Below are positions 18,421-36,656 of a DNA stretch of 64,000 nucleotides, one piece after another. The DNA is from Microbacterium rhizosphaerae. GTDB taxonomy: Bacteria > Actinomycetota > Actinomycetes > Actinomycetales > Microbacteriaceae. Under the pieces are notes generated by a model. That model had not been told where the DNA came from, searched no databases, and saw only the letters and a list, made by a program, of their open reading frames with translations. Position 1 is the stretch's first letter. Each line of letters begins with the position of its first letter. A program made the translations under genes and the position numbers. The stretch lies in contig NZ_CP139368.1 in NCBI RefSeq assembly GCF_034120055.1, positions 434,001 through 498,000 of the forward strand, written 5' to 3'.

Positions 18421-20316
18421 CGCACCGGCGGCCCGGTGAGCCCCACGCGATCACGGCTGCGCCCCCTCGCGCAGGACGAGATCCGCCTCACGGGGGGCTT
18501 CTGGGGGTCGAAACAGGACCTCAACGCCGACGCGATCATCGACCATTGCCTGACGTGGATGGAACGCACGGGATGGCTCGCCAATTTCGATCGGGCCGCG
18601 AACGGGACGGTCGCAGAGCATCGCGACGGCATCGAGTTCGTCGACTCGGAGGTCTACAAGCTGCTCGAAGCGATGGCGTGGGAACTCGGACGCACGCCCA
18701 CGCCTGTCCTCGAGGAGACGTACGCCGCACTGGTGGCGCGCGTCTTCGCAGCCCAAGAAGCCGACGGATACCTTCACACCGCCTTCGGGCGCGCGGGGCA
18801 GCGTCCGCGCTACTCGGATCTCGAATGGGGGCACGAGCTGTACTGCTTCGGGCATCTCTTCCAGGCCGCGGTCGCGCGGATCCGCACCGGGCACGACGAT
18901 GAGATCGTCGATGTCGCACGTCGACTCGCAGATCACGTGTACCTCGAATTCGGGCCCGATGGGCGCGATGCGATCTGCGGACATCCCGAGATCGAAACCG
19001 CGCTCGCCGAGCTCGGCCGTGCGCTCGACGTCCCTCGCTACCTCGAACTGGCCGGGCTCCTCCTCGATCGGCGCGGTCGGCGACGCCTGAAGACGACGCT
19101 GTTCCAGAGCAGCGAGTACTTCCTGGACGACGTTCCCGTACGGGAGGCCGACATCCTCCGCGGCCACGCCGTCCGTGCGATGTACCTGGCGGCGGGCGCC
19201 GTCGACATCGCCACGGAATTCGATGACGCGGAACTCCTCGCGGCGGTCGAACGCCAGTGGGCCCGCACCGTCGCGACACGCACCTACGTCACGGGAGGTG
19301 TGGGCGCGCACCATCAGAACGAGGAATTCGGCAACGACTTCGAGCTTCCTGCCGACCGGGCGTACGCCGAGACCTGCGCGGCGATCGGATCGATCATGCT
19401 CAGCTGGCGACTTCTGCTGCAGACAGGGGAGGGCAAGTACGCCGATCTGATCGAGCGGACCCTCCTGAACGCCGTCCTCGTCTCTCCGCGTGCGGACGGA
19501 AGGGCGTTCTACTACGCGAACACGCTGCACCAGCGCACCCTCGGCGCCATGCCTGCGGAGGACGAGCTCAGCGAGCGCGCGGAGGCCACCGTTCGTGCGC
19601 CGTGGTTCGAAGTGTCCTGCTGCCCCACCAACGTGGCGCGAACCCTCGCGAGCGTCTCGTCCTATTTCGCCACCAGCACCTCCGACGGAATCCAGATCCA
19701 TCAGTTCGGCGAGGCGAGCATTCGAACGACGACGGGGACCGGCACCCGCGTCGATGTGCTCATGCGCGCGGCCGAGTACCCGTTCGAGGGCACGATCGTG
19801 CTCGACGTCTCGTCCGACGACGAGGTCGAGATCAGCGTACGGATACCCTCATGGGCGGCGACCGACGCAACCGTGAGATTCGGCGACCGGGACGTCCTGG
19901 TCGGTGACGGATATGCGCGCATCCGCGCGCGCTTCGACGGAACCCAGCCGATCGAGGTCGAACTGCCGATGGCGCCGCGATTCGTCTACCCCGACCCGGC
20001 CATCGACGCGCTGCGCGGGACGGTCGCGATCGAGCGCGGGCCGCTGGTCCTGTGCGCGGAATCCACGGACCTCCCCGCGGACGTCGCCCTCGACGCCATC
20101 CGCGTGATGGATGCGCAGCCGGCCACCGCGACGGACCGCGGCGCCGAGGCGTGGTTCTCGGTCTCGAGGAGATCTCCTGCGGACTGGCCGTACACGGGCT
20201 CACCGGTCACCGTGAGCGACGAACGGCGGATACATCTCGCTCTCCATCCGTACTTCGCCTGGGCGAACCGGGGGCCGAGCATGATGCGGGTCTTCATCCC
20301 GATCGGTCGACACTGA
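18397..20316 (+). CDS. GH127 beta-L-arabinofuranosidase (DUF1680)
   Basis: The 639-residue cytoplasmic enzyme matches the whole GH127 family: an (alpha/alpha)6 barrel (about residues 30-420) followed by beta-sandwich domains. The family signature FEVSCCPTNVARTL carries the metal-bound catalytic Cys region, and YVTGGVGAHHQNEEFG contains the conserved glutamate. GH127 enzymes release beta-L-arabinofuranose from hydroxyproline-linked or arabinan-derived oligosaccharides. Its place at the end of the transporter operon suggests it handles imported arabinosides. The start is the second of two duplicated ATGs; only that one is in frame. Confidence 0.93.
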   Translation: MTDTLASARTGGPVSPTRSRLRPLAQDEIRLTGGFWGSKQDLNADAIIDHCLTWMERTGWLANFDRAANGTVAEHRDGIEFVDSEVYKLLEAMAWELGRTPTPVLEETYAALVARVFAAQEADGYLHTAFGRAGQRPRYSDLEWGHELYCFGHLFQAAVARIRTGHDDEIVDVARRLADHVYLEFGPDGRDAICGHPEIETALAELGRALDVPRYLELAGLLLDRRGRRRLKTTLFQSSEYFLDDVPVREADILRGHAVRAMYLAAGAVDIATEFDDAELLAAVERQWARTVATRTYVTGGVGAHHQNEEFGNDFELPADRAYAETCAAIGSIMLSWRLLLQTGEGKYADLIERTLLNAVLVSPRADGRAFYYANTLHQRTLGAMPAEDELSERAEATVRAPWFEVSCCPTNVARTLASVSSYFATSTSDGIQIHQFGEASIRTTTGTGTRVDVLMRAAEYPFEGTIVLDVSSDDEVEISVRIPSWAATDATVRFGDRDVLVGDGYARIRARFDGTQPIEVELPMAPRFVYPDPAIDALRGTVAIERGPLVLCAESTDLPADVALDAIRVMDAQPATATDRGAEAWFSVSRRSPADWPYTGSPVTVSDERRIHLALHPYFAWANRGPSMMRVFIPIGRH

Positions 20317-22198: not shown

Positions 22199-23707
22199 TC
22201 ATCTCCTCCGCCTGTGGACGGACTGCGGCGTGAGATAGGCGGAGAGACCCTCGATGCCGTACTCGAGGCCGAGGCCCGAGTCGTGGCGACCGCCGAACGG
22301 CGCGACGTGGTTCGAGGCGAAGAAGTTGATTCCGATCGAGCCGGTGTCGATGCGGCGGGCCACCTGGAGGGCGGCATCCTCATCCGCCCCGAACACGATC
22401 CCGCCCAGACCGAAGCGGGTCGAGTTCGCGATCGCGATCGCATCATCGACGTCTCGGGCGCGCAGGATCGTCAGGACCGGTCCGAACACCTCCTCCTGGG
22501 CGATCCGCATGTCAGGCCGCACATCGGCGAACACCGTGGGCGCGACGAAGCTGCCGATCTCGAACGGGGGGTCGACGTCTCCCCCGAGGGTGGGACGCGC
22601 GCCCTCCGCGACACCGGCGCGGATCAGCCCGCGGACGGTGTCGCGTTGCGCGGCGGTGGCGACGGGCCCGAACACGGTCGTCGCATCCAGTGGGTCGCCG
22701 ACGCGTGCCGCTCCCACAGTCGCCGTCACCATCGACACCAGCGCGTCGTACCGCTCGGGTGTGGCGATCAGGCGGGTGGATATGTAGCAGGTCTGCCCGG
22801 TGTTGCGGATGCAGCTGCGCAGCAGCACGGCCGACATCGCATCGAGGTCGGCATCGGGCAGCACGATCGCCGCGGACTTGCCGCCGAGCTCGAGCGTGAC
22901 CGGACGCAGCAGTTCCCCGCAGGCTGCCGCGATGCGCCGGCCCACCGGCGTCGACCCGGTGAACGCGACCTTGTCGACATCGGGGTGCCGCACGAGCGCG
23001 TCGCCGGTCGCGGCCCCGCCGGTGACCAGGTTGATCACGCCCGGCGGGATGCCTGCCTCATCCGCCGCATCGAGCAGGAAGCGCACGGAGAGGGGCGTCG
23101 GGCTCGCGGGCTTGATCACGACGGTGCAGCCGGCGAGCAGCGCGGGGGCGAGCTTGATGACGACGAGGTTGATCGGAAAGTTCCACGGAGCGATCAGCGC
23201 GCACACCCCGACGGGGTCGCGGGCGACGAGAGTCTCGTTCGCGCCGCCCGGAAAGGGCCGGATATCGGGCTCCTCCAGGAACGTCGAGAGTCCCGCGAAG
23301 ACGCGGAGGATGGATGCCGCGTTCCCGGCCGCCCCGGACGTCTCGGCGATCGGTGACCCGTTCTCGAGCGTGTTCGTGCGGGCCAGCGCCTCCGAGCGAC
23401 GCTCGATGGCGTCGGCCATCCGGCGCAGCGCACCGGCCCGCTCTGCAGGCGTGCGCGAGGACCAGTCACCGAACGCCGCGCGGGCCGCTCGGACGGCCGC
23501 ATCCACCTCGGCCGGTGAGGCCTCGGGAACCGAACCCCACTGTTCGCCGGTCGCCGGATCGGTCACGGGCAGGGCGTCCCCCGTGGAGCGGACCTCCTCG
23601 CCGCCGATGCGCAGCGTCGTGACGTCCGCATAGGGGAGGCGGGTCGCTGCGGAGCGATGCCGCTCCCGCATCCGGGCGGCCGCATCCGTTTCCCGCAGCG
23701 TGTTCAC
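22199..23707 (-). CDS. creC: NAD(P)-dependent aldehyde dehydrogenase, last gene of the cre-like operon
   Basis: The 502-residue ALDH superfamily protein has all core motifs: IAPWNFP, VTLELGGKSAAIV with the general-base Glu, FTGSTPVGR, the catalytic Cys in NTGQTCYIS and EEVFGPVLT. The GTG at 23707 overlaps the HD gene stop as GTGA and follows the family alignment. In the corynebacterial cre pathway CreC oxidises 4-hydroxybenzaldehyde to 4-hydroxybenzoate; the same step on a p-alkylphenol-derived aldehyde is inferred from operon order. The ring-cleavage genes expected next are not in the window. ALDH substrate choice cannot be read from sequence alone. Confidence 0.85.
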   Translation of the reverse strand: MNTLRETDAAARMRERHRSAATRLPYADVTTLRIGGEEVRSTGDALPVTDPATGEQWGSVPEASPAEVDAAVRAARAAFGDWSSRTPAERAGALRRMADAIERRSEALARTNTLENGSPIAETSGAAGNAASILRVFAGLSTFLEEPDIRPFPGGANETLVARDPVGVCALIAPWNFPINLVVIKLAPALLAGCTVVIKPASPTPLSVRFLLDAADEAGIPPGVINLVTGGAATGDALVRHPDVDKVAFTGSTPVGRRIAAACGELLRPVTLELGGKSAAIVLPDADLDAMSAVLLRSCIRNTGQTCYISTRLIATPERYDALVSMVTATVGAARVGDPLDATTVFGPVATAAQRDTVRGLIRAGVAEGARPTLGGDVDPPFEIGSFVAPTVFADVRPDMRIAQEEVFGPVLTILRARDVDDAIAIANSTRFGLGGIVFGADEDAALQVARRIDTGSIGINFFASNHVAPFGGRHDSGLGLEYGIEGLSAYLTPQSVHRRRR

Positions 23708-24348
23708 GACAGCTGGCCCGTCTTCAGGAGCGATTCGGAGCGGGAGAGCTCGGCATCCGCCATCTGCACGGCCGCCTCGGTGAGCAGCTCCGGGATGATC
23801 TCCGAGCGCAGGCGCCGGCAGTACTCGGCCGGAGTGAGCCGGAACCAGCCCGATGCCAGGGCGATGCCGGCCGGCGTGAAACGCCACAGCCGGTCGGCGT
23901 CTCGGACGAGGCTGTCTTCGAGCGAGCGCGAGTCCGGGCGGGTGTCGTGGCCGTCGATGATGTCGGTGACACGGGCGATGAACGCGGGGTCGTATCCGAG
24001 CGGAGGCAGCACCTCGCGGGCGATCATGCAACCGTGACGTTCGTGCTCGTAGCGCACATCGGCCTGGCGCCAGTCGCCGCTGAAGCCTTCACTGAGGATG
24101 CGCGACTCGTCCACGCGCGCCCACCCCGTGTCGTGCAGCAGGATCGCGACCCGCACGACGAGGGAGTCGGCCTCGGGATACGCGTCGCACAGGCGCTCGG
24201 CGAACGCGAACGAGATGGGCAGGTGGATGTCGTTGGCCCGGGCGCGCGACTCGACGACGATCGACCGCCAGACGGGGTCGAGGTCATCGCCCGACTCCCA
24301 CGCGGAGATCGGTGAGGTGTCGGCGGGCACGGCGGTGGGGAGTGTCAT
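23704..24348 (-). CDS. creD: HD-domain phosphohydrolase (CreD-like)
   Basis: The 214-residue HD protein shows AILLHDTGWARVD (HD pair about residues 72-73), HERHGCMIA, IIDGHDTR and DADRLWRFTPAGI, so all the H...HD...D metal ligands are present. It lies between the ferredoxin reductase and aldehyde dehydrogenase genes, overlapping the latter by four bases. In the cre pathway an HD phosphatase removes phosphate from the oxidised aryl phosphate, freeing 4-hydroxybenzyl alcohol or a related product. A second paralogue sits at 32160, sharing ILLHDTGW, IIDGHD and DAD(R/K)LWR. The function is assigned by synteny. Confidence 0.82.
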   Translation of the reverse strand: MTLPTAVPADTSPISAWESGDDLDPVWRSIVVESRARANDIHLPISFAFAERLCDAYPEADSLVVRVAILLHDTGWARVDESRILSEGFSGDWRQADVRYEHERHGCMIAREVLPPLGYDPAFIARVTDIIDGHDTRPDSRSLEDSLVRDADRLWRFTPAGIALASGWFRLTPAEYCRRLRSEIIPELLTEAAVQMADAELSRSESLLKTGQLS

Positions 24349-24363
24349 CGCGGGTCTCCGGTT

Positions 24364-25668
24364 CTAGACGAGTGCCGCGGCGGCGGGCTCGACGATGGAC
24401 CTCTTCACGGGGATGCCGGTGTCGGCGGCGTCTGCGGGTGGAATGGTGGCGCCGCGGCCGAGGGCGTGGCGTATCGCCATGAACTCCGCCGGGTGGTTGA
24501 TGCAGTCCGCGGCGATGAGCCGACCGCTGCGGTAGTACAAGACGCTGAACTTCTCCGTTTCCGGATCGCCGCGCACCACGACCGAGTCGTAGCCCGTCGA
24601 GAGTCCGGCGATCTGCAGCTTGATGTCGGCCTGATCCGACCAGAACCACGGCACGCCTGAGTACACGGCGTCGCGCCCGAGCAGCGTCGCGGCGGCGACC
24701 TTCGCCTGCTCGAACGCGTTGTTGACGCTCTCGAGACGGATGCGACCCCCCGTGCCCAGCGGGTAGGGGTTCGGCATCACCGCGCAGTCGCCGGCGGCGA
24801 CGGTGAGGCCGTCCGACGTGCGGCACGCCTCGTCGACGACGATGCCGCCGTCGACCTCGAGGCCGAGCTGATCCGCGAGCTCGACACGTGGGATGATGCC
24901 GATGCCGATGACGACGAGGTCGGCGGCGACGACCGTGCCGTCCTCCATCTCGACCCCGCTGACCGCCCCCTTGCCGCCGGCGACCGAGGAGTCGTCGCCC
25001 ACGATGCGGGCGATGCGCGCATTCAGGAGGACCTCCGTGCCGCGACGGCGGTGCGCGCCGAGGTAGAACGCGCTGGTCTCCTCAGCGACGACGCGGCCGA
25101 CGAGGCGGGGCGCCGCTTCGAGCACGGTGACGCTCTTGCCGAGCCCGCGGGCCACGGCTGCGGTCTCGAGCCCGATGAAGCCGCCCCCGACGACGACGAC
25201 CCGGCGGGTGGCAGGGTCGCGCATCGCAGCCTCGAGGCTGATCGCGTCGTCGGCGTCGCGCAGGTAGTGGACTCCGCGGTAGTCGGTGCCGGGCAGCGGC
25301 AGGCGACGTACGGCGGCGCCCGTTGTGAGGGCCAGGCGTGCGAAGCGGATGCTGCGACCGCCCTCAGTCGTCGCGGTGCCGGCGCCGTCGGCGCCGCGGT
25401 GGATCGTCACGACCCGGTCGCCCGTCACGAGCTGGATGCCTCGATCGGCGAACCACTCCCGTGTGCGCAGGATCACGTCATCGGGCTCGAGCTCGCCCTT
25501 GATCCATCCCTTCGACAGCGGCGGCCGCTGGTACGGGCGATGATTCTCCTCGCCGATCAGGACGATCGGCTCGGTGTCGCCGAGTTCGCGCATGATCGAT
25601 GCGAGCTGGACGCCCGCCTGGCATGCGCCGACGATCAGTGTGGTGCCCGCAGTGTCCGAAGAGCCCAT
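24364..25668 (-). CDS. creE: FAD-dependent ferredoxin reductase of the P450 system
   Basis: The 434-residue flavoprotein resembles putidaredoxin/rhodocoxin reductases. The N-terminal FAD motif is TLIVGACQAG (Cys where Gly is usual). The NAD motif is VVVVGGGFIGLE. RPPLSKGW and the C-terminal WFWSDQADIKLQIAG segment are family hallmarks. The ATG at 25668 shares its A with the ferredoxin stop (TGATG), so reductase and ferredoxin are coupled. It passes electrons from NAD(P)H to the ferredoxin for the P450. With CreF and CreJ it would form a three-component class I P450 system. Confidence 0.9.
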   Translation of the reverse strand: MGSSDTAGTTLIVGACQAGVQLASIMRELGDTEPIVLIGEENHRPYQRPPLSKGWIKGELEPDDVILRTREWFADRGIQLVTGDRVVTIHRGADGAGTATTEGGRSIRFARLALTTGAAVRRLPLPGTDYRGVHYLRDADDAISLEAAMRDPATRRVVVVGGGFIGLETAAVARGLGKSVTVLEAAPRLVGRVVAEETSAFYLGAHRRRGTEVLLNARIARIVGDDSSVAGGKGAVSGVEMEDGTVVAADLVVIGIGIIPRVELADQLGLEVDGGIVVDEACRTSDGLTVAAGDCAVMPNPYPLGTGGRIRLESVNNAFEQAKVAAATLLGRDAVYSGVPWFWSDQADIKLQIAGLSTGYDSVVVRGDPETEKFSVLYYRSGRLIAADCINHPAEFMAIRHALGRGATIPPADAADTGIPVKRSIVEPAAAALV

Positions 25669-26039
25669 CACAGCTGCTCCCGGGGAGTGGTCACGTGGTA
25701 CTCGCAGCCGCCCTGGAGCTTGATCTGGCACGACAGCCGGGAGTTCTCTTCGCGCTCGACGGCGGTGCCGTCGAGCATCTCGTCCTCGAGATCTCCGGGG
25801 CCGCCGACGAGCGCGAGCGTGTCTTCGGCGACGAAGACGTGGCAGGTCGCGCAGGAGAGGCTGCCGCCGCATTCGCCGACGATCCCCGGCACGCCGTTGC
25901 GCACCGCGGTCTCCATGATCGAATCTCCGGGCCTGCCGGTGATCGTCGTCACGCCGCCGTCGTCGGCGGTGTACACCACGACGCTGTGCGTGCTGTCGAC
26001 CAGCGCGGATTCTCGCGCGGGTGTCTCGATGATGCTCAT
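25668..26039 (-). CDS. creF: [2Fe-2S] ferredoxin of the P450 system
   Basis: The 123-residue adrenodoxin/putidaredoxin-type ferredoxin has the four cluster ligands C57, C63, C66 and C104 (C-x5-C-x2-C then a distant C). The ATG at 26039 follows AGGAG five bases upstream; an upstream in-frame Met would add 13 residues without a ribosome site. It carries electrons from the reductase to the cytochrome P450. The gene sits between the SDR and reductase genes, with the stop overlapping the reductase start. Confidence 0.92.
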   Translation of the reverse strand: MSIIETPARESALVDSTHSVVVYTADDGGVTTITGRPGDSIMETAVRNGVPGIVGECGGSLSCATCHVFVAEDTLALVGGPGDLEDEMLDGTAVEREENSRLSCQIKLQGGCEYHVTTPREQL

Positions 26040-26058
26040 GTCTTCTCCTGACTGAGGT

Positions 26059-26820
26059 CTAGAGGAACTGCCGCCCACCGTCGACGACGAGCGTCTGACC
26101 GGTGACGAAGGCGGATTCCGGGCTGGCGAGGAACAGGACGGCCCCCACGATGTCGTCGGGCTGGATGGGCCGCTTGATCGAGCCGCGGTCGATGCCGTAC
26201 GACTCGGCGTCGGGCATGAGACTGTGGCTCGCCTCGGTGAGGGTGAAGCCGGGGGCGACGGCGTTCACGGTGATGCCGCGCGCGCCGAGCTCCTTCGCGA
26301 GCACGCGGGTCAGCCCGATCACGCCGGCCTTGCTCGCCACATAGTGCGCCCACTGAGCCGATCCGCTCATGACCGTCGCGGACGAGATGTTCACGATCCG
26401 CGCGCCCGTGTTCAGGAGCGGCGAGGATGCGCGGGCGACGAGCCACGGGCCCTTGAGGTTCACCGCCATCACGCGATCCCACTCGGTCTCGTCGATGTCC
26501 TCGAAAGGCGATCGGGTGAGGGTCGCGTAGATCGCGGCGTTGTTGATCACGACGTCGATGCCACCGCGTCCCGCCTCGGCGGTCAGGGCTGCCAGCTCGG
26601 CCGTGGAGGAGGCATCCGTCACATCGACCCCGGCGCCCGTGACGGTCAGCCCCTCCGCGGCCAGCTCGGCGGCCGCGCGCTCGGCGCCCACTCGGTCGAT
26701 GTCGGCGATCACCACGACGTCGCCGCGGCGCGCGAACGCCTCTGCGAAGGCTCGTCCCAGCCCACCCGCCGCGCCCGTCACGAGGACCGTGCGGGGACTG
26801 CTCGTGGTGTCGTCGATCAT
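26059..26820 (-). CDS. creG: Short-chain dehydrogenase/reductase (alcohol dehydrogenase step)
   Basis: The 253-residue classical SDR has the TGAAGGLG cofactor motif (about residues 15-22), NNAA, the catalytic Tyr and Lys in HYVASK and the C-terminal GQTLVVDGG. An Asp after the second strand (VIADID) indicates NAD preference. In the cre order this is CreG, the dehydrogenase that oxidises the hydroxybenzyl alcohol to the aldehyde. It starts nine bases after the kinase-like subunit. The substrate assignment rests on synteny; the SDR fold alone would allow many alcohols. Confidence 0.85.
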   Translation of the reverse strand: MIDDTTSSPRTVLVTGAAGGLGRAFAEAFARRGDVVVIADIDRVGAERAAAELAAEGLTVTGAGVDVTDASSTAELAALTAEAGRGGIDVVINNAAIYATLTRSPFEDIDETEWDRVMAVNLKGPWLVARASSPLLNTGARIVNISSATVMSGSAQWAHYVASKAGVIGLTRVLAKELGARGITVNAVAPGFTLTEASHSLMPDAESYGIDRGSIKRPIQPDDIVGAVLFLASPESAFVTGQTLVVDGGRQFL

Positions 26821-26829
26821 CGCCTCGCC

Positions 26830-28668
26830 TCAGTCCAGGATCGTCACGGTGCCGGAGTTGCCGTCGACGCGGAGCATCTGTCCGGTGCGGATCTCGGAGG
26901 ACGCCGTGCCCGTGCCGGTGACCGCCGGCATCCCGTATTCACGGCAGACGATCGCGGCGTGGCTCATCATGCCGCCGATGTCGGTGACCGTTGCGCGGAT
27001 CTTGCCGAAGATCGGGCCCCAGCTGGGCGCCGTGACCGGGGCGACGAGGATCTCGCCGTCGCACACGTCGGAGAGCTGGTCCGCACTCGAGATCACGCGG
27101 GCCGGCCCCTCGGCGATGCCCGGAGAGGCGGCCATGCCCTTGAGCGTGCCCTCAGGCACATCGCCCACGCCCAGCCAGTTCTGGATCTGGTCGTCGGTGA
27201 TGCCCCACAGCATGAGGGTGAACGGCTCGGTGATGACCGCGGGCGGCGTGTTGAGGGCCGGCTGCGGACGGGCGGTCGAGAGGGCGTCCACGATTCCGCG
27301 CCGGCGTTCGACCTCGGCCGGCCAGTAATCCGGTCCGATCGCAGGGGCGCCCACCATCCAGCCGTTGATGTAGTCGAACAGCGCCTCGCGGACCTCGTCA
27401 CGGCGGAGGTAGAACATGTCGTTCGCCTGCGGCCAGAAGCCCTCGCCCTGCAGAACAGCGGACAGCTGCCGGGCCTTGCGCCAGAACACCCCCATCGTCC
27501 AGTGCTCGATGTAGAAGTTGTGGTTCTCGACGTAGGGGTACACCGTGCGGGCGAGTCCGAGCTTGCCGCGGAAGGTCTCGACCGCGTCGCCGCTGAGCAT
27601 CTCGGCGTACTCCTCCGTGATCCGGTCGCGCTCGGCGATCAGGACGTCGACGTGGCGGTCGATGTCGGCGCCGCTGCGCAGGCGCTCGATGTAGCCCTTG
27701 ACGAAGGCGAGCGGCGTCTCAGGCGCGTCGCGCCAGTACTCGTCGTGTGCGTAGAACCCGTTGCCGGTGGTGAAGTTGAACCACGGGTCCTGAGCGTCGG
27801 CCCATGCGTTCGTCCAGTCGACGCCGGCAGGGTCCGCGGCGATCGCGGCGAGCAGGCCGGCGGCATCCGACGTGTCGGCGAAGTGAGCGTCCAGGCCGTC
27901 GCGCACGGCGATGTGCGCGAGCTTCTTGAGCTCGTCGTCAGGGCGGAACAGCTCCATGTCGACGCCCTGCACCATCGTGGCGATCGCCTGGTCCGGAATG
28001 CGAGGGAACACGTCCTTGCAGAACATGAACAGGTCGAGATACGCGACGTAGCCGAGGTTGAGGAACTCGAAATGGTACTGCCAGGCGCGGTACGCCAGAG
28101 CGATGAGCCGGTCGTAGTCGGCGAGCAGCCGGGTCGCCGGACCGGTGCCCTTGCCGCTCAGCACGTCCTCGAGGGGGATCGCGTCGGGCAGGGCGACGAA
28201 CTCGATCGACTCGAGCTCGTCGATCGTCTCCTTGAGCTTGCGGTGCCAGTTCTGCAGCAGGCTCTCCCAGTTCTGGAAGTAGTGCCCGGCGCGCTCCATG
28301 AACTGCGGGATGCGAGCCTCGATGTGCTGCGGGTCGACCGCCACGGGCGACATGAAGACGTATCCGTTGTGGATGCGGTACTCGATGCCGTTCGCCGTGG
28401 GGATCAGCAGCTGGCGGGAGTTGTACTGGCCGAGACAGCCGACCGCGAACTCGAACCCGATCGTCTCGAACGGCTTGGTGACCGTGGGCCAGTGCTGGCT
28501 GTCGCAGAACCAGAACTTCGCCTCCTCGGTCGCTCGGCGGTTCTCCTGGAAGACCAGGTTGTATGCGTAGAGGTCCTTCCAGCCCTCGGCGCCGGCGGGT
28601 GCCGGCTGCTCGTATGGGCTGGGGAAGGAGTTCTTCACCGGTGCGATGACAGCTGTCGCCTGTGACAT
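26830..28668 (-). CDS. creH: Large subunit of a PEP-synthase-like aryl phosphate synthase (swivelling His domain)
   Basis: The 612-residue protein has a helical N-terminal part (about 1-500) and a C-terminal PEP-utiliser mobile domain. The phosphorylatable His is H570 in GGMMSHAAIVCREYG. The size and architecture match the 70-kDa subunit of phenylphosphate synthase, in which the histidine swivel moves phosphate from an ATP-grasp partner to a phenol. The next gene upstream supplies that partner. In the cre pathway CreH and CreI phosphorylate p-cresol before oxidation. The start ATG follows AAAGGA. PEP synthase itself is excluded because the two domains are split and no PEP-binding barrel is seen. 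Confidence 0.85.
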   Translation of the reverse strand: MSQATAVIAPVKNSFPSPYEQPAPAGAEGWKDLYAYNLVFQENRRATEEAKFWFCDSQHWPTVTKPFETIGFEFAVGCLGQYNSRQLLIPTANGIEYRIHNGYVFMSPVAVDPQHIEARIPQFMERAGHYFQNWESLLQNWHRKLKETIDELESIEFVALPDAIPLEDVLSGKGTGPATRLLADYDRLIALAYRAWQYHFEFLNLGYVAYLDLFMFCKDVFPRIPDQAIATMVQGVDMELFRPDDELKKLAHIAVRDGLDAHFADTSDAAGLLAAIAADPAGVDWTNAWADAQDPWFNFTTGNGFYAHDEYWRDAPETPLAFVKGYIERLRSGADIDRHVDVLIAERDRITEEYAEMLSGDAVETFRGKLGLARTVYPYVENHNFYIEHWTMGVFWRKARQLSAVLQGEGFWPQANDMFYLRRDEVREALFDYINGWMVGAPAIGPDYWPAEVERRRGIVDALSTARPQPALNTPPAVITEPFTLMLWGITDDQIQNWLGVGDVPEGTLKGMAASPGIAEGPARVISSADQLSDVCDGEILVAPVTAPSWGPIFGKIRATVTDIGGMMSHAAIVCREYGMPAVTGTGTASSEIRTGQMLRVDGNSGTVTILD

Positions 28669-28735
28669 TGTCGGGTCCTTTCGGGATGCTGGTTCGGGAG
28701 TGCGTGCGGGCGGGCGCCGCAGATCGGGACGATGA

Positions 28736-29809
28736 TCATCGGCCGATCTGGGCCATGAGCGACTGGGTGATGCTGGCGATGCCGAAGCCCGACGTCGTCG
28801 CTGCGGCCGTGGATTCCTTCGACGCCCAGACGGTCTCGGGCCGGGATTGCAGGAGCAGCAGGTTCTCGCCGTCGGGCAGGCCCCGGTCGATCGCCCATTC
28901 GATGTCCTGCGGCGAGCCGAAGTGCTTCTCGGCCCGCTTGGCCATCGCGGCGACGAGGGTCACTTCCGCGTCGGTGAGCGAGCGGATGCTGCGCCGTTCG
29001 GGCTCGACCTCGCGCTCGATGATGCGCCGGGCGGACGCGTCCGGGACGAGCTCGATGTGCTTGTCACCGAGGTGCTCGGCAGAGATCGTCAGCATCACCT
29101 TGTCGACGTGGAGGTTGTCGGGCGTCACGAGACCGGACACGACCAGCTCACCCAGGCCCCACGCGGCGTCGATCACGATGGTGGAGCGGTCGCCGTTGGA
29201 CGGGTCGATGGTCATTGCGACGCCGGCGGCCTTCGCATCCACCATCTTCTGGACGGCGACGGCCATCGACAGGCCCTCGTTCGGGATTCGGGCCCGCAGA
29301 CGGTAGACGATCGCCCGGGACGTGTACAGCGAAGCCCAGCACCGGCGCACGTGCTCGGCGACCTCTTCGCGGCCGACGAGCCACAGATACGTGTCCTGCT
29401 GACCCGCGAAGCTCGCATCCGGCAGATCCTCGGCGGTGGCAGAAGACCTGACTGCGACGGGCGTCTCGGCGTCGAACCTCGACTGCAGGTCGGCGTATGC
29501 GGCCGTGAACTCGTCGTGGATCGCCGGCGGAACCGGGCGCTGCAGGATCTCGGCGCGGATCTGCGCGGAGACGGCGTCGATGCTGTCGACGTCGGCGGGG
29601 TCGATCGTGGCCAGCAGCGCGTGGATGTCGTCGGCGATGCCCGAGGTCTCGATGAACGCGGTGTACGCATCGGTGGTGATCGCGAATCCCGGGGGCACCG
29701 GCATCCCCGCCGTCGTGAGTGCCACCAGGGAGGCGCACTTCCCGCCGAGCATCTCGATCGGCGCGGGTCCGGCCTCGTCGAAGAAGCGGATGAACAGTCG
29801 CTCTGACAT
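28736..29809 (-). CDS. creI: ATP-grasp subunit of the PEP-synthase-like aryl phosphate synthase
   Basis: The 357-residue protein is the N-terminal nucleotide-binding half of PEP synthase/PPDK on its own. It has GGKCASLVAL near the N-terminus, PVAVRSSATAEDLPDASFAGQQDTYL, AWGLGELVVSG and the LLLLQSRPETVW end. The size fits the 40-kDa subunit of phenylphosphate synthase. It would bind ATP and phosphorylate the swivelling His of the 612-residue partner. Its ATG comes one base after the P450 stop, and 67 bp separate it from creH. Function is inferred from the pairing and from cre synteny. Confidence 0.87.
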   Translation of the reverse strand: MSERLFIRFFDEAGPAPIEMLGGKCASLVALTTAGMPVPPGFAITTDAYTAFIETSGIADDIHALLATIDPADVDSIDAVSAQIRAEILQRPVPPAIHDEFTAAYADLQSRFDAETPVAVRSSATAEDLPDASFAGQQDTYLWLVGREEVAEHVRRCWASLYTSRAIVYRLRARIPNEGLSMAVAVQKMVDAKAAGVAMTIDPSNGDRSTIVIDAAWGLGELVVSGLVTPDNLHVDKVMLTISAEHLGDKHIELVPDASARRIIEREVEPERRSIRSLTDAEVTLVAAMAKRAEKHFGSPQDIEWAIDRGLPDGENLLLLQSRPETVWASKESTAAATTSGFGIASITQSLMAQIGR

Positions 29810-29810
29810 G

Positions 29811-31145
29811 TCAGACCTCCCAGGTCACGGGGACGGATGTGGGCGCGCGGAACGAGAGGTTCTCGCCGAAGGCGATCTCGCTGCCGGTGAGGCGGACGCT
29901 GGGCACGGCCGCCGCCGTCTCTTCGAGCACGATGCGGTCCTGGAGCTTGGCGAGCATGTTTCCGAGGCAGTAGTGGATGCCGTAGCCGAAGGACATGTGA
30001 TTGCGGGCGTCCGTGCGGTCGATGTCGAACACGTCGGGGTGCGCGAACACCTCTTCGTCGCGGTTCGCCGAGCCCATCACGAGCAGGATGCCGGCGCCCC
30101 GGGGGATCGGCACGCCGCCGATCTCGGTGTCACGGAGGGCCTTGCGCCGCCACGCCACGATCGAGCCGCTGTAGCGCAGCACTTCGTCGATCGCGGCAGG
30201 GATGCGGGCGGGGTCGGCGACGATCGCATCCCATGCCTCACGGTGTCCGAGCAGCACACGCACCGAGTTGGCGATGAGCGTGGTCGTGGTCTCGTGGCCG
30301 GCGAACAGAAGGCTGTAGCAGAGCGAGGCGATCTCGTGATCGGTGATCTCGGCGCCGGCATCCTGCGCTTCGACGAGATCGGCGATCAGGCTGTCGCCGC
30401 CGTTGCGGTGGGCCTCGACGACGAGGCGCTGGCACTCCTGCCAGTACTCCACCAGGTTGTGCGCGTGCGGGATCTGCTGCTCGTCGGCGAGGTCGCCCCA
30501 CGTCATCGCGGCGCGGGAGTCGGACCAGCGCTTGTATGTGGGCACCATCGCGGGGTCGACGCCGAGAAGCGTGAGGATCGTGATGGTCGGGATGTCGAAA
30601 GCGATATCGCGGAGGAAGTCGCCGTGACGGTCGGCGTCGGCGAGCATGCGCTGCAGCGCGGCGCGGGTGTTCTCGCGGATGGCGGGCTCGAGAGCCTTGA
30701 AGCGGCGCGGTGTGAAGGCGCGCTGGGCGATCGCGCGGATGCGGGTGTGATCCGGCGGAACGCGGGCCGAGAGGCCGGAGTAAGCGGTGAAGCCGCCCTC
30801 CTTCATGATGCGGGACGCCTCTTCTCCGCGTTCGCGCACGGGGGCCTGGGCGTTCTCGCTCGAGAAGGTCTCCCAGTCGTCGAACACGGCGCGCACGTCG
30901 GCCCAGCGCGTGACGACCCAGAGGCCGATGCGCTCGTCGTACATGACGGGCTCCTCCGAGCGGAGGCGCGCATACGCCGGGAACGGGTCGGTCATGTCGA
31001 ACGGCTCGTAGCCGTGGTGCGCGTCCGCGCCAGCGGTGAAGGCCGAGTGGTCGACCGGGCAGGCCGCAGGGCCGGCAGCATCCGTCACGGCATCCGTGTC
31101 TGCTTCCGTTCCCGCGTCGTGCAGGTCGGTGCGCGATACTGCCAT
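29811..31145 (-). CDS. creJ: Cytochrome P450 (CreJ-like), first gene of the cre-like operon
   Basis: The 444-residue bacterial P450 shows the I-helix LLFAGHETTT, the ExxR pair in DEVLRYSG, and the heme loop FGYGIHYCLGN with its thiolate Cys. The ATG at 31145 follows GAAGGAG at correct spacing; the longer reading frame upstream has no ribosome site. In corynebacteria CreJ with CreE and CreF hydroxylates the benzylic carbon of phosphorylated p-alkylphenols, the phosphate acting as a handle. The operon here carries the same parts in the same order. The first 45 residues are Asp/Ala-rich and probably disordered. Confidence 0.88.
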   Translation of the reverse strand: MAVSRTDLHDAGTEADTDAVTDAAGPAACPVDHSAFTAGADAHHGYEPFDMTDPFPAYARLRSEEPVMYDERIGLWVVTRWADVRAVFDDWETFSSENAQAPVRERGEEASRIMKEGGFTAYSGLSARVPPDHTRIRAIAQRAFTPRRFKALEPAIRENTRAALQRMLADADRHGDFLRDIAFDIPTITILTLLGVDPAMVPTYKRWSDSRAAMTWGDLADEQQIPHAHNLVEYWQECQRLVVEAHRNGGDSLIADLVEAQDAGAEITDHEIASLCYSLLFAGHETTTTLIANSVRVLLGHREAWDAIVADPARIPAAIDEVLRYSGSIVAWRRKALRDTEIGGVPIPRGAGILLVMGSANRDEEVFAHPDVFDIDRTDARNHMSFGYGIHYCLGNMLAKLQDRIVLEETAAAVPSVRLTGSEIAFGENLSFRAPTSVPVTWEV

Positions 31146-31244
31146 GGCGACTCCTTCGTCTCTGAACGTCGTGTCCTGGTTCAGCTCATGCCACCCGGAG
31201 GCGGCAGTCACATCTCACCCCCCGGGGCGTCGACCGCGATAGCC

Positions 31245-31265
31245 GGCTTCCACTGAGCGGAAGCG
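31245..31265. promoter_or_regulatory. Candidate IclR operator upstream of creJ
   Basis: GCTTCC (31246-31251) and GGAAGC (31259-31264) form an inverted repeat with a 7-base spacer, 100 bp upstream of creJ. The same arrangement occurs at 32099-32119 before the IclR gene. Confidence 0.65.
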
Positions 31266-31268
31266 ACC

Positions 31269-32063
31269 TCATCGCGGACGCGTGCCCGCCGGGGTCATGC
31301 TGCGCAGCGGGAATGCCCCGACACTGGTCTCGATGCGGTGAGCGATGCCGCGCAGCGCGGGCAGGTGCCGCTCCAGGCCCACCGCGGTGTCCGCGGATGT
31401 CACCAGGCCGAGTGCCGCCCCGATGCCGCCGTCGCGCTGGAAGATCGGCACCGCGATCGAGGCCGACCCGAGCCGGACTTCGTCGGCGGTCAGCGCGTAG
31501 CCGCGCGCGCGGATGACATCCAGTTCCACCCGCAGGGCGTCGGGGTCGACGTGGGTCTTCGGCGTGCGGCTCTCGAGCGGCTGGGCGAGCACGGCTTCGC
31601 GCAGCCACGACTCCTCGTGCGCGAGCAGGACCTTGCCGACCGCGGTCGCGTGCAGCGGAAGCCTGCCGCCCACACGTGATGCTTGCGGTACGCGGCGCGA
31701 GCCGTACACCCGATCGATGTACAGCGCCTCGGTATGCTCGCGCACCGCGATGTGCACGGTCTCCTGCGTGAGGCTGTAGAGGTCCTGCAGCAGAGGACGG
31801 GCGATGTCGCGTACCTGGCGACCGGCGTGCTGTCCGAGCTCCCACAAGCGCAGGCCGATCTGATACCGGCCGTTGTCGTCGCGCTGCAGCGCGCCCCAGT
31901 CCTCGAGCTCGGCGAGCAGGCGATGCGTGGTGCTCAACGGCAGTCCCGTCTCGTTGCTCAGCTCGGTGAGACTGCGGGGCGCGAGAGTCTTCTCGAACAC
32001 GGCGAGGATCGACAGCATCCGCCCCGTCACCGACTGCCCCGGAGGGCTCACCCCACCCGCCAT
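31269..32063 (-). CDS. IclR-family regulator of the alkylphenol operon
   Basis: The 264-residue protein has the N-terminal winged helix (about 10-70, RSLTELSNETGLPLSTTHRLLAEL) and the IclR effector domain (about 85-255, with ATAVGKVLLA and the GIGAALGLV strand). The ATG at 32063 gives the normal family length. It lies head-on to the cre-like operon, 123 bp upstream of creJ on the same strand, and diverges from the second HD gene. IclR proteins often control aromatic catabolism with a phenolic effector. The paired GCTTCC-N7-GGAAGC motifs suggest control of itself, the second HD gene and the operon. Confidence 0.88.
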   Translation of the reverse strand: MAGGVSPPGQSVTGRMLSILAVFEKTLAPRSLTELSNETGLPLSTTHRLLAELEDWGALQRDDNGRYQIGLRLWELGQHAGRQVRDIARPLLQDLYSLTQETVHIAVREHTEALYIDRVYGSRRVPQASRVGGRLPLHATAVGKVLLAHEESWLREAVLAQPLESRTPKTHVDPDALRVELDVIRARGYALTADEVRLGSASIAVPIFQRDGGIGAALGLVTSADTAVGLERHLPALRGIAHRIETSVGAFPLRSMTPAGTRPR

Positions 32064-32098
32064 GCCGACTCCGCCCCTCGTGTCCGTCGGAGCATCAT

Positions 32099-32119
32099 CG
32101 CTTCCGACCAGTGGAAGCG
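32099..32119. promoter_or_regulatory. Candidate IclR operator between iclR and the second HD gene
   Basis: CGCTTCC (32099-32105) and GGAAGCG (32113-32119) form a perfect 7-bp inverted repeat with a 7-base spacer, placed in the 96-bp divergent spacer. It repeats the motif at 31245-31265. Confidence 0.7.
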
Positions 32120-32159
32120 TAGTTGCTCGGGACCGGCGCTGCCTGAGAGCCTCCCGTTC

Positions 32160-32918
32160 ATGAGCTCGTCGACGAGCACGCGCCTGGGCCGCGACATCCG
32201 CTCGCACATCCCGCCCGCATCCGACGTGCCCGGGGTCATCCGTCTGCGGGATCCGGACGCCGAGGTCTGGAATCGGGCGGCGCCGTACCTCGCGGTGCGC
32301 AACAACGACAGCCACACTCTGTACGCGTACGGCCTCGCCCGCGCCCTGTTGGCTCTGCTGCCGGATGCCGACCCGGAGGTCGTGCTGCCGGCGATCCTCC
32401 TCCACGACACCGGCTGGTCGACCGTGTCGGACGACCTGATCCTGGAGGCGATCGCGCCGGGAGGGGGACGTCCGGATCTGGTGCTGAAACACGAGAAGGA
32501 GGGTGCGCGGATCGCGACCGAGGTGCTGTCGTCACTCGGGCGAGACTCGGAGACCGTGCGTCGAATCGTGGAGATCATCGACGGGCATGACTCGCGACTT
32601 CATGCGCTGCACATCGACGATGCGATCGTGAAGGATGCCGACAAGCTCTGGCGGGTGACACCGCACGGGATCGAGATCGTCTGCGGGTGGTTCGGGCTGT
32701 CCCGCGAGGAATCCCTGCGCCTCACGTCACTGCGCGTGCAGGACGACCTCTTCACCGTGCCGGCGCGCGCAATGGCGCGCGGGTTCGCGGCGATCGGATC
32801 GATCGTGGTCGCGCCCCAGCGAGCCGGCTTGATCTCGCGGTCGACGTCCCTTCAGGTGGGCGATGGCACGATAACCGTCGGACCGGTCGGTCCGCGGGAA
32901 GCGGCACGGCCCGCGTAG
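32160..32918 (+). CDS. Second HD-domain phosphohydrolase, paralogue of creD
   Basis: The 252-residue HD protein keeps the same ligands as the operon copy: AILLHDTGW, KHEKEGARI, IIDGHDS and KDADKLWRVTPHGI. It is about 40 residues longer, with an N-terminal extension and a Gly/Ser-poor C-terminal tail. It is transcribed divergently from the IclR gene and shares its operator, so it probably belongs to the same regulon. It could dephosphorylate the same aryl phosphate or a different intermediate; which of the two HD proteins is the functional equivalent of CreD cannot be decided. The ATG at 32160 has only a weak ribosome site. Confidence 0.82.
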   Translation: MSSSTSTRLGRDIRSHIPPASDVPGVIRLRDPDAEVWNRAAPYLAVRNNDSHTLYAYGLARALLALLPDADPEVVLPAILLHDTGWSTVSDDLILEAIAPGGGRPDLVLKHEKEGARIATEVLSSLGRDSETVRRIVEIIDGHDSRLHALHIDDAIVKDADKLWRVTPHGIEIVCGWFGLSREESLRLTSLRVQDDLFTVPARAMARGFAAIGSIVVAPQRAGLISRSTSLQVGDGTITVGPVGPREAARPA

Positions 32919-33544: not shown

Positions 33545-34516
33545 TCAGTGGGCGGTGACCACGCCGACGAGGTCGTGCACGATGACGGCCGCGCTGCGCG
33601 CGCCCTGGCCCGCCGCCACGATGAGCTGCTGGGGACCGGGGGCCGCCGCATCCCCCGCACCGTACAGGCCGGGGATGCTCGTGCGGCCCGAGCGGTCGAC
33701 CACGAGATGCCCGTGCTCGTCGCGCGACGCGTCGAGGCCCGCCAGGAACTCCAGTGCGGGCGTCCAGACCGGACGGACGAAGCCGCCCTCGACCGGCACG
33801 ACCGCCCCGCTCGCGAGGCGCACGCCGGTGATCGCGCCGCGGTCGCCCTCGAGGTCGGCGATCGATTCGCGCTCGACACGCACACCGGATGCCGCGAGCT
33901 CCGCTTCGTCGGCGGTATCCACCGTGTCGGCGCCGTTCGTGAAGACCGTGAGGCTGTGCGTCCAGCGGGCGATGAGCCGAGCCCGAGCCGCGAGATCGCC
34001 GGTCTCGCCGATGAGGGCCAGGGGTCGGTCCTGCAGCTCCCACGCGTCGCACGCCGCGCAGCTGAAGACGCTCATGCCGTAGAAACCGCGGATTCCCGGC
34101 ACATCCGGCAGCGTCTCGCGCAGTCCCGTGGCGACGAGCACCGAGCGGGCATGCACGGATGCGGGACCCTTGCGGCCCTCGAGGACCGCGGCGAAGCGCG
34201 CCCCGTCGGCACCGGCGGTCTCCTCGAGCGACGCCACCTTCGTGCGCACCAGGACCTGGACGTTCGGGTACGCGGCGAGCTCCTCGCGCGCGAGGCGGCG
34301 GAGCTCCTGCGGCGGGACTCCGTCGCGTGTGAGGAAGCCGTGCGAGCGGAGGGTCGCCGCGTTGCGGGGGCGGTCGGCATCCACCACCACGACCGTCGCG
34401 CGGGCGCGACCGAGGTTCAGGGCGGCGGAGAGCCCGGCGGGTCCGCCGCCGATGACGAGCACATCGACGACGGGAGTCTCGCCGCTCTCCGCTCCGCCGG
34501 GCGCCGGGTCGGTCAT
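33545..34516 (-). CDS. Thioredoxin-reductase-like FAD/NAD(P) oxidoreductase, end of the sulfur operon
   Basis: The 323-residue two-domain flavoprotein has DVLVIGGGPAGLSAALN at the N-terminus, FSCAACDAWE in the middle and GLYGAGDAAAPGPQQL at the end, all TrxB-family features. The redox pair is spaced C-A-A-C as in thioredoxin reductase. The NAD half-domain lacks the usual GGGNSA motif and reads GETGDLA instead, so the cofactor preference may be altered. The ATG overlaps the fprA stop as ATGA. Its partner is unknown; being last in an assimilatory sulfur operon suggests a redox role there. No terminator was seen in the 29 bp before the convergent NYN gene. Confidence 0.82.
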   Translation of the reverse strand: MTDPAPGGAESGETPVVDVLVIGGGPAGLSAALNLGRARATVVVVDADRPRNAATLRSHGFLTRDGVPPQELRRLAREELAAYPNVQVLVRTKVASLEETAGADGARFAAVLEGRKGPASVHARSVLVATGLRETLPDVPGIRGFYGMSVFSCAACDAWELQDRPLALIGETGDLAARARLIARWTHSLTVFTNGADTVDTADEAELAASGVRVERESIADLEGDRGAITGVRLASGAVVPVEGGFVRPVWTPALEFLAGLDASRDEHGHLVVDRSGRTSIPGLYGAGDAAAPGPQQLIVAAGQGARSAAVIVHDLVGVVTAH

Positions 34517-35886
34517 GAGCCGAGCAGGGAACCGCTGCGCGAGAGCTCGACCTGCTCGTCGCGCGGCACGACCTTCACGCGCTCGCGCGTGTGCTCGTGC
34601 GCAGCGCCGAGCGCGCGCTCGTGGGCATCGAGGGCCAGCCAGCCGTCCCAGGTCGTGTACGCGACGTCGCGCTCGGCCAGCAGATCGAGCACGTCGCCGT
34701 CGACCGTCGGAGCCGTCAGCACGCCGTGCTCGACGTCGGCGACCAGGTGGGCGATCGTCTCCATCGCATCGGACTTCGTGTGACCGATGAGGCCGACCGG
34801 TCCGCGCTTGATCCAGCCGGTCGCGTAGAGCCCGGTCGACACCCGGCCCTCGACGTTCGGGATGACGCCGCGAACGTCGTCGAACGGCGCATCCACGATC
34901 GGCGAGCCGAAGTACCCGACCGCGCGGTAGACCTGCTGCACCGGGATCTCGCGGTACTCGCCGGTTCCGACGACGCCGCTCTCGGTGGGCGTCGTCCGCT
35001 CGAACCGCACCGCCTCGACGCGCTCCGTGCCGACGACCTCGACCGGCGCGTGCCAGAAGTGCAGGTGCAGGCGACGGGACGCGCCGGACGGCCCGCGGTC
35101 CCGCCACGACTGGAACGTGCGCAGCATGACCTTGAGCTGGTTGTTCGTGGCGGCCGCCGCATCCAGCGTCTCGAAATCCTCGTCGGCGAGCACGATGTCG
35201 ACGTCGCGCACCTCGCCGAGCTCGCGCAGCTCGATGGGCGTGAACTTGACGTCGGCCGGGCCGCGGCGTCCGAAGACGTGCACGTCGGTGACGGCCGAGG
35301 CCTCGAGTCCCGCGAGCACGTTGTCCGGGATCTCGGTCGGGCGCAGGTCCACCGCGTGCTTCGCGAGGACGCGGGCGACGTCGAGCGCGACGTTCCCGTT
35401 GCCGATGACGGCGACCGCGGAGGCATCGAGCGGCCACTCGCGCGGGACGTCGGGGTGCCCGTCGTACCAGGCGACGAAGTCCGCGGCACCGTACGAGCCG
35501 GGGAGGTGGATGCCGGGGATGTCGAGCTCCGCATCGCGGATCGCACCGGTGGCGAGGATCACGGCGTCGTAGCGCTCGTGCAGCTCGTCGATCGCGATGT
35601 CGCGGCCGACCTCGACGTTGCCGATGAACCGGGTGGTGCCGGCATCCAGCATCTCGTGCAGCGAGGTGACGATGCCCTTGATGCGCGGGTGGTCGGGCGC
35701 GACGCCGTAGCGGATGAGGCCGTACGGCGCGGGGAGGGACTCGAACAGGTCGATGCGTGCTCCGACAGGCTCAGCAACCGGTCCCTGAGCTTGTCGAAGG
35801 GCGTTCGTGAGGATGTTGCCGGCGTAGATGCCGGCAGGGCCGGCTCCGACGATCGCGACGCGGAGGTGATTCAAAGAGGAGGTCAC
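34513..35886 (-). CDS. fprA: Ferredoxin/flavodoxin-NADP reductase (FprA, adrenodoxin-reductase type)
   Basis: The 457-residue protein matches the FprA family: VAIVGAGPAGIYAGN at the N-terminus, YGLIRYGVAPDH, VIGNGNVALDVAR for NADP, and YATGWIKRGPVGLIGH. It supplies reduced ferredoxin, most likely to the sulfite reductase encoded seven genes upstream. The GTG start overlaps the cobA stop as GTGA. A 12-residue insertion (RQAQGPVAEPVG, residues 31-42) corresponds exactly to a palindromic repeat element at 35761-35800 placed in frame between the first helix and strand. The rest of the fold is intact, so the enzyme is probably functional. Confidence 0.92.
   Translation of the reverse strand: MTSSLNHLRVAIVGAGPAGIYAGNILTNALRQAQGPVAEPVGARIDLFESLPAPYGLIRYGVAPDHPRIKGIVTSLHEMLDAGTTRFIGNVEVGRDIAIDELHERYDAVILATGAIRDAELDIPGIHLPGSYGAADFVAWYDGHPDVPREWPLDASAVAVIGNGNVALDVARVLAKHAVDLRPTEIPDNVLAGLEASAVTDVHVFGRRGPADVKFTPIELRELGEVRDVDIVLADEDFETLDAAAATNNQLKVMLRTFQSWRDRGPSGASRRLHLHFWHAPVEVVGTERVEAVRFERTTPTESGVVGTGEYREIPVQQVYRAVGYFGSPIVDAPFDDVRGVIPNVEGRVSTGLYATGWIKRGPVGLIGHTKSDAMETIAHLVADVEHGVLTAPTVDGDVLDLLAERDVAYTTWDGWLALDAHERALGAAHEHTRERVKVVPRDEQVELSRSGSLLGS
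35761..35800 (-). repeat. REP-like palindromic element inserted in fprA
   Basis: CGACAGGCTCAG on one arm and CTGAGCTTGTCG on the other form an imperfect inverted repeat around ACCGG. It encodes residues 31-42 of FprA without breaking the frame. Related sequences lie at 37579, 40818 and 60825. Confidence 0.85.
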
Positions 35887-36656
35887 AGCGAGGCGGCCTT
35901 TCTGTCTTCGGTTTCGAGAGCTTCTGCGTACAGGCTGAGCGACACGACGTCGCCGGCGACGACGACGGCGGGCGAGCGCACGCCGCGGAGCGCGGCCTGG
36001 TGCGCGATGGTGGCGAGCGTTCCGACGGTGACCCGCTGGCCGGGGCCGAACCCGTCTTCGACGATCGCGACGGGGCAGTCGGCCCCGCGCTCGCCGCGGG
36101 CCAGGGTCATGGCCGCGTGCGCGAGGGTGCCGATGCCCATGAGCAGGACCACCGTGTGATCGCGGCCGCCGCCGAGCTGCTGGATCTGGTCGTGGGCGGT
36201 GACGACGGTGAAGGCCGTCGCGACGCCGCGGTGGGTCAGCGGGATGCCGGCGATCGCGGGCACCGAGACGGCTGACGTGACGCCCGAGACGACCTCGACG
36301 TCAACGCCCGCCTCGAGGCAGAACTCGCGCTCCTCGCCGCCGCGGCCGAAGACGTACGGGTCGCCGCCCTTCAGCCGCACGACGTTCTTGCCGTCGCGGG
36401 CGAGGTGCACGAGCAGGGCGTTGATCGCGTCCTGCGGCACGGCGTGGTGCCCCGGGAGCTTGCCCACGTCGACGACCTCGGCCGCGAGCTCCACGCCCTC
36501 GGCGGCGAGCCCGTCGAGGACCGCGCGCGCGCCGAGGCGATCGGCGACGATGACGTCGGCCCGCTCGAGAGCGCGCAGGCCCCGCAGGGTCAGCAGGCCG
36601 GGATCGCCCGGGCCCGCCCCGACGAGCCAGACCTTGCCGGTCGCACGGCGGCTCAT
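35883..36656 (-). CDS. cobA: Uroporphyrinogen-III C-methyltransferase
   Basis: The 257-residue SUMT has the GAGPGDPGLLTL signature at residues 13-24, VVRLKGGDPYVFGRGGEE, the PLTHRGVA loop and a C-terminal AVVVAGDVVSL strand. It methylates uroporphyrinogen III twice to give precorrin-2, the start of siroheme. Siroheme is the cofactor of the sulfite reductase at the operon head. It is the single-domain CobA type without the CysG dehydrogenase half; a chelatase gene at 44643 supplies a later step. The ATG overlaps the ABC permease stop as ATGA. Confidence 0.95.
   Translation of the reverse strand: MSRRATGKVWLVGAGPGDPGLLTLRGLRALERADVIVADRLGARAVLDGLAAEGVELAAEVVDVGKLPGHHAVPQDAINALLVHLARDGKNVVRLKGGDPYVFGRGGEEREFCLEAGVDVEVVSGVTSAVSVPAIAGIPLTHRGVATAFTVVTAHDQIQQLGGGRDHTVVLLMGIGTLAHAAMTLARGERGADCPVAIVEDGFGPGQRVTVGTLATIAHQAALRGVRSPAVVVAGDVVSLSLYAEALETEDRKAASL

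Follow-up and report, generated by a model that had tools for sequence, protein, structure and literature searches.

A predicted Cre-type alkylphenol operon with an associated second HD-domain phosphohydrolase in Microbacterium rhizosphaerae

Eight consecutive genes on the minus strand of Microbacterium rhizosphaerae resemble the cre genes of Corynebacterium glutamicum, which raises the question whether the same phosphorylation-dependent alkylphenol pathway operates here, on which substrate and under which control. The genes lie in a stretch of 64,000 nucleotides (positions 434,001 to 498,000 of contig NZ_CP139368.1, assembly GCF_034120055.1; hereafter the window), which is part of a single-contig genome of 4,057,055 bases that is 99.95% complete. 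We hold with high, though not full, confidence that the locus is a peripheral catabolic operon of Cre type for a p-alkylphenol (most likely p-cresol), that its product is passed on through PobA to meta-cleavage, that an IclR-family protein is its probable regulator, and that a second HD-domain protein encoded next to it (HD2) acts in the same pathway.

The run starts with creJ (29811-31145; minus strand, as are all genes of the operon), which encodes a cytochrome P450 of 444 aa (Pfam p450) with the heme-cysteine motif FGYGIHYCLG and an AGHET motif. It is followed by the two subunits of a predicted two-component dikinase: creI (28736-29809; 357 aa, ATP-grasp domain PPDK_N, PF01326, 373 bits) and creH (26830-28668; 612 aa), the phosphohistidine swivel subunit (PF00391, PEP-utilizers). 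Next come creG (26059-26820), a short-chain dehydrogenase/reductase presumed to act as 4-hydroxybenzyl alcohol dehydrogenase (PF13561/PF00106; motifs YVASK and GAAGGLG), creF (25668-26039), a [2Fe-2S] ferredoxin (PF00111, Fer2; motif CGGSLSCATC), and creE (24364-25668), a ferredoxin reductase (PF07992 and PF14759). The run ends with creD (23704-24348), an HD-domain phosphohydrolase (HD1; PF01966), and creC (22199-23707), an aldehyde dehydrogenase (PF00171, 513 bits). The latter most likely starts at the GTG that overlaps the creD stop, rather than at the upstream TTG of a 610-aa open reading frame. From creJ to creC the intergenic gaps measure -4 to 67 bp, which fits a single transcription unit, and motif inspection found the catalytic motifs intact in J, H, F, G, C and E as well as in both HD proteins.

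An earlier, sequence-only reading had described these eight genes as one minus-strand run in the order J-I-H-G-F-E-D-C, and all of them are indeed present with the expected Pfam domains. Nonetheless, within the range that it covered (22199..32918) it overlooked two further genes. One encodes an IclR-family regulator (31269-32063, minus strand; PF01614 and PF09339), which lies directly upstream of creJ and is a candidate regulator of the operon. The other is HD2 (32160-32918, plus strand; PF01966), a paralogue of creD that is divergent from the IclR gene.

How close is this set to the one of C. glutamicum? As a reference for C. glutamicum we used one of the Corynebacterium loci with a CreH match (L128), whose P450 is identical in 399/399 residues to the PDB chains 5gwe and 5xjn, which we take to be CreJ of C. 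glutamicum (the PDB listing just reads 'Cytochrome P450'). These two chains are also the best PDB matches of the window P450 (E 2e-198 for 5xjn). The gene order of the reference matches that of cg0637-cg0645, which hold creC to creJ with tabulated functions (PMC7764795). With BLASTP, identities between the window and C. glutamicum proteins amount to 63% for C, 59% for D, 52% for E, 70% for G, 64% for H, 58% for I and 71% for J; for the ferredoxin CreF, tblastn against the C. glutamicum locus gives 57%. The gene order of C. glutamicum that had been recognized here is thus borne out by orthologues at 52-71% identity across the eight proteins, and the shared motifs complete the likeness. Differences are found around this core: the window locus has the adjoining IclR gene and the divergent HD2 (the C. 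glutamicum flank upstream of creJ is masked), and the genome differs in its lower pathway, as described below.

The homology of all eight genes gives good support to the earlier proposal that a p-alkylphenol is degraded via aryl phosphates. Following the functions of the C. glutamicum genes (PMC7764795, PMC8796525 and PMC9549646), CreI (ATP-grasp) and CreH (swivel histidine) would transfer phosphate from ATP to the phenolic hydroxyl group. The P450 CreJ, receiving electrons via CreE and CreF, would then hydroxylate the methyl group of the aryl phosphate, after which CreD would take the phosphate off. Finally, CreG and then CreC would oxidise the alcohol and the aldehyde, yielding 4-hydroxybenzoate.

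A two-component dikinase is common to several phenol-phosphorylating pathways (PMC12167813), and the kinase might in principle serve Hpe-type acetophenone catabolism or act as the phenylphosphate synthase of anaerobic phenol degradation. HpeHI of Rhodococcus rhodochrous GD02 is likewise a two-subunit dikinase with ATP-grasp and swivel parts that makes a phosphorylated phenol intermediate, but it belongs to another clade, and the Hpe system has a biotin-dependent carboxylase instead of a P450 and a HAD-type instead of an HD phosphatase (PMC9618137). PpsAB of Thauera aromatica is a homologous dikinase as well (PMC12167813); by its description it is set apart as an anaerobic system in which phosphorylation is followed by carboxylation (PMC9618137). 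Predicted 4-alkylphenol kinases form a clade of their own (PMC9618137). Throughout the family to which the window organism belongs, CreH matches (31/398 genomes at E 1e-50 or better) fall into two identity bands, one at 61-84% (with the own protein at 100%) and one at 44-48%. Among 366 genomes of the window genus, 18 carry a Cre-type CreH (63-100%), five a match at 43-46%, and one genome has both; in a further genome, without CreH match (G719), a contig end truncates the cre cluster and leaves C, D and E in view. For the genus Corynebacterium we found CreH matches in 16/242 genomes, 15 of them at 63-66% and one, Hpe-like, at 44%. In this last locus (L135) the kinase lies beside genes for biotin carboxylase, carboxyl transferase, biotin carrier and HAD phosphatase, the same gene company as described for the hpe cluster (PMC9618137). 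The low-identity band is Hpe-like by these sequence criteria, with the neighbouring genes inspected in L135 alone.

A quick CreH tree (38 rows, with the root placed on three Hpe-like ones at a branch with SH-like approximate likelihood-ratio support of 99; PpsA was not among the rows) places the window with Microbacterium, Agromyces and Microcella and apart from the Hpe-like kinases. Moreover, the window locus has neither an Hpe-clade kinase nor adjoining biotin-dependent carboxylase genes: its operon contains no carboxylase gene, unlike the Hpe-type locus with its genes for biotin carboxylase, biotin carrier and HAD phosphatase. In its swivel motif (TDIGGMMSH, from residue 562) CreH fits the T/SxxGGxxxH rule (PMC12167813); the residue preceding the histidine is Ser and not Cys, although PpsA likewise has Ser. 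Altogether the P450 (71%) and CreH (64%) are clearly closer to C. glutamicum than CreH is to Hpe-like kinases (43-46%). A grouping of P450 and kinase with families of different chemistry, which would have spoken against the earlier reading, is thus not seen, and we consider a role of the kinase in one of the other routes highly improbable.

Two loci with unusual kinase genes were seen on the way. Arthrobacter sp. C2 (L055) has a second kinase-like pair (~50% identity for H, 41% for I) immediately upstream of its cre cluster, which may be another phenol kinase set; a further cre locus (L063) lies on the same chromosome. In L133 (G607:C1:268000-284000) the creH match at 7795-9629 is split over two frames (residues 1-351 and 353-612), so that this creH looks broken or mis-sequenced; the remaining cre genes and HD2 are present.

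Is the operon a corynebacterial trait that has strayed into Microbacterium? We scanned GTDB species genomes with the P450 and kept the best 80 of 131 relatives, a set that covers close relatives only. The complete order J-I-H-G-F-E-D-C recurs in 75/80 of these other loci, the remaining five of which run into contig ends, and such recurrence means that the arrangement is not a matter of chance. Just three of the 80 loci carry a Corynebacterium title; others come from Microbacterium, Cryobacterium, Arthrobacter, Kocuria, Rhodococcus, Nocardia, Nocardioides, Streptomyces, Saccharopolyspora, Georgenia and Brevibacterium. The presence of the pathway genes outside corynebacteria, as had been noted, therefore stands, but the novelty that this implied is weak, since the operon is found across many families of Actinomycetota. 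That CreHI occurs beyond Corynebacterium was probably in part known already (PMC9618137). A paper on p-cresol in Rhodococcus opacus 1CP (PMC13101518) was considered as a further report of cre outside Corynebacterium and set aside: it describes other routes, and the terms 'phosphorylat' and 'creJ' are absent from its main text.

Within single genera the operon is patchy (18/366 genomes of the window genus and 15/242 of Corynebacterium). In the CreH tree the five Corynebacterium rows stand beside rows of Arthrobacter, Glutamicibacter and Brevibacterium, so that the corynebacterial set appears as one twig of a broad actinobacterial tree. Rows of one genus occupy at least three places (the window clade, L130/L131 and L132). 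Given this scatter, we did not adopt vertical inheritance alone as the history of the locus; the tree positions rather suggest that cre was acquired repeatedly within the genus.

Some variants of the locus deserve mention. A Cre-type CreH is also encoded in eight sampled genomes that belong to a single genus of the family and measure only 1.6-1.8 Mb (G059, G128, G181, G229, G270, G306, G336 and G362), and the retention of a catabolic operon in genomes this small is unexpected. The locus of G059 (L163, G059:C1:994000-1013000; single contig, 55% GC in this stretch) has the order R-J-I-H-HD2-G-F-E-D-C, where R is the IclR gene. In L132 (G485, 4425-13342) the order is D2-R-J-I-H-G-D-C; HD2 (D2) and IclR are present and no match was found for creF and creE, the P450 presumably borrowing other redox partners.

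What becomes of 4-hydroxybenzoate? In the window genome we searched for PobA, LigAB, LigK and intradiol dioxygenases (PF00775). PobA, a 4-hydroxybenzoate 3-monooxygenase, reaches 507 bits (subfamily cut-off 351), the fused protocatechuate 4,5-dioxygenase LigAB 880 (cut-off 837) and LigK 410 (cut-off 304.5). Between the LigAB and LigK genes lies an amidohydrolase gene whose product is related to 4-sulfomuconolactone hydrolase, below the cut-off of that model; it could be a pyrone-dicarboxylate hydrolase. The genome has no PF00775 match, whereas the C. glutamicum genome does. With LigAB and LigK present and PF00775 unmatched, the end product should be meta-cleaved in this organism: 4-hydroxybenzoate would be converted by PobA to protocatechuate, which would undergo 4,5-(meta)-cleavage by LigAB followed by LigK, and not enter the intradiol (beta-ketoadipate) route of C. 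glutamicum. The latter difference concerns the lower pathway and not the Cre set.

How might the operon be controlled? Of the 74 loci whose upstream sequence extends over 3 kb or more, 69 have the IclR gene upstream of creJ. PMC7764795 terms the inducer of the cre operon unknown. By assembling short words that the IclR-creJ gaps of 73 loci share, we obtained a 17-bp palindrome, CTTCCRCTNAGYGGAAG. The window holds a perfect predicted operator, CTTCCACTGAGCGGAAG, at 31247-31263 in the regulator-creJ gap and a second one with two mismatches at 32101-32117 in the divergent HD2/IclR gap. Counted over loci at up to three mismatches, the palindrome occurs upstream of creJ in 60/79 loci, against 5/1600 base shuffles (80 rows) and 3/1580 dinucleotide shuffles. 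Upstream of HD2 it occurs in 23/37 loci (against 4/740 base and 1/740 dinucleotide shuffles), namely in 18/31 where HD2 points with the operon and in 5/6 where it is divergent. As the motif was derived from the sequences preceding creJ, the HD2 count is a largely independent test. Upstream of the IclR gene itself the palindrome is seen in 9/73 loci (shuffles 2/1460 and 7/1460); among the nine, HD2 is divergent in five and lacking in three (L009, L015 and L016).

On the scale of the 4.06-Mb genome the creJ site is the only perfect match. With up to two mismatches the pattern is found at four places, two of which are the window sites, against two places for a reversed control pattern. However, 14/100 shuffled windows also contained at least two matches at up to three mismatches, so that support for the weaker site (32101-32117) comes from its position and from the other loci. 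Because the palindrome precedes creJ and HD2 in so many loci, one regulator probably controls both the cre operon and HD2, and we infer from its gene position that the IclR protein is the one that binds CTTCCRCTNAGYGGAAG.

The role of HD2 is the remaining question. It shares 41% identity with CreD of the window operon and 36% with that of C. glutamicum. In a careful tree of 68 rows, taken from selected loci, proteins of the CreD and HD2 types form two clades, each with support of 100/100. Of the 74 loci with 3 kb or more upstream, 35 contain HD2, mostly next to IclR (between IclR and creJ in L031 and L057), but behind creC in L032 and L042 and about 6 kb upstream in L080. In three other loci (L130, L131 and L163) it lies within the operon between H and G. 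Neither HD2 nor CreD reached any NCBIfam model at E 1e-10. The conserved H, HD, H, H and D residues of HD proteins bind metals. In an alignment of 33 HD2 rows (ten more, interrupted by a stop within the aligned part, were left out) H52, H82-D83, H111, H143, D159 and D161 are conserved at 100%, and so are the matching positions in 84 CreD rows. The CreD residues E87, G88, F89, W93 and R99 are in contrast mostly or always replaced in HD2. Since the HD positions are kept and these residues are not, we infer that HD2 is an active phosphohydrolase with another substrate.

In many cre loci, those of Cryobacterium and Corynebacterium included, HD2 is missing, and in the window it lies on the opposite strand; it might thus be a mere HD-domain passenger of the locus, standing outside the pathway. 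We judge this unlikely. In the window genus HD2-type matches (at least 51% identity) occur in 12/366 genomes, every one of them with a Cre-type CreH, and in 10/12 HD2 lies within about 5 kb of cre on the same contig (the other two, on other contigs, are fragmented assemblies). The association (12/18 cre-positive genomes against 0/348 others, with G719 counted as cre-negative) gives a Fisher p of 2e-18, to be read with the reservation that related genomes are not independent. HD2 furthermore keeps with the cluster in varied places (divergent from R, upstream of R, in the R-J gap, behind C, in the H-G gap), and the creJ palindrome recurs in front of it. Against the association it counts that 6/18 cre-positive genomes of the genus have no HD2-type match (one is 72% complete and two are single-contig). 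Membership in the pathway is thus the preferred explanation. Here HD2 may be a second dedicated aryl-phosphate phosphohydrolase in a widespread two-phosphatase form of the Cre system, a proposal that we make tentatively, at somewhat less than even chance. Because HD2 departs from CreD in a segment close to the HD motif, its substrate may be another intermediate (e.g. over-oxidised 4-carboxyphenyl phosphate); alternatively, it could adjust the amount of a phosphorylated inducer to which the neighbouring IclR protein responds. The published passages that we searched, which did not extend to the primary Cre papers, contain no description of HD2 or of the operator, and HD2 seems to be undescribed.

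Several observations weigh against the overall reading given at the outset. PobA stays below the stricter TIGR02360 cut-off (394 against 538.7 bits). The operator exceeds three mismatches in 19/79 loci for creJ and in 14/37 for HD2, and HD2 was not found in 39/74 loci with at least 3 kb upstream, which makes it dispensable in many lineages. Lastly, related enzymes accept several phenols, so that the sequence cannot fix the substrate: a system derived from C. glutamicum oxidises various p- and m-alkylphenols (PMC9549646), and HpeHI accepts cresol, vanillin and 4-hydroxybenzaldehyde (PMC12167813). The same chemistry might consequently serve 4-ethylphenol, m-alkylphenols or another lignin-derived phenol as the natural substrate. 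We regard this as a minority possibility, less likely than p-cresol but not negligible, given that all eight genes are closely orthologous to the p-cresol set and that the PobA/protocatechuate lower pathway fits 4-hydroxybenzoate as the end product.

With p-cresol kept as the favoured substrate, the locus is best seen as a widespread variant of a known pathway, in which the second HD phosphohydrolase beside the IclR gene, the shared palindrome and the predicted meta-cleavage lower route are new. Its distribution indicates that phosphorylation-first breakdown of alkylphenols is a general actinobacterial strategy and not a corynebacterial oddity. A concrete operator and regulator can be offered for testing, together with a conserved second phosphatase that is absent from the visible parts of the C. 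glutamicum model locus, and the Cre pathway and protocatechuate meta-cleavage appear to be joined in one genome. CreJ-catalysed oxidation already serves biocatalysis (PMC9549646), and a phosphatase with another selectivity could therefore be useful.

Elsewhere in the window two other gene groups were noted. A minus-strand run at 34513-44472 has the look of sulfur assimilation, with a tetrapyrrole methylase, an ABC permease, an NMT1-like binding protein, an EF-Tu-like GTPase, and phosphoadenosine phosphosulfate (PAPS) reductase and sulfite/nitrite reductase domains. On the plus strand, a sugar locus at 8931-20316 comprises a carbohydrate-binding module (CBM) protein, two LacI regulators, a solute-binding protein, permeases, an MGH1-like glycosidase and a GH127 protein.

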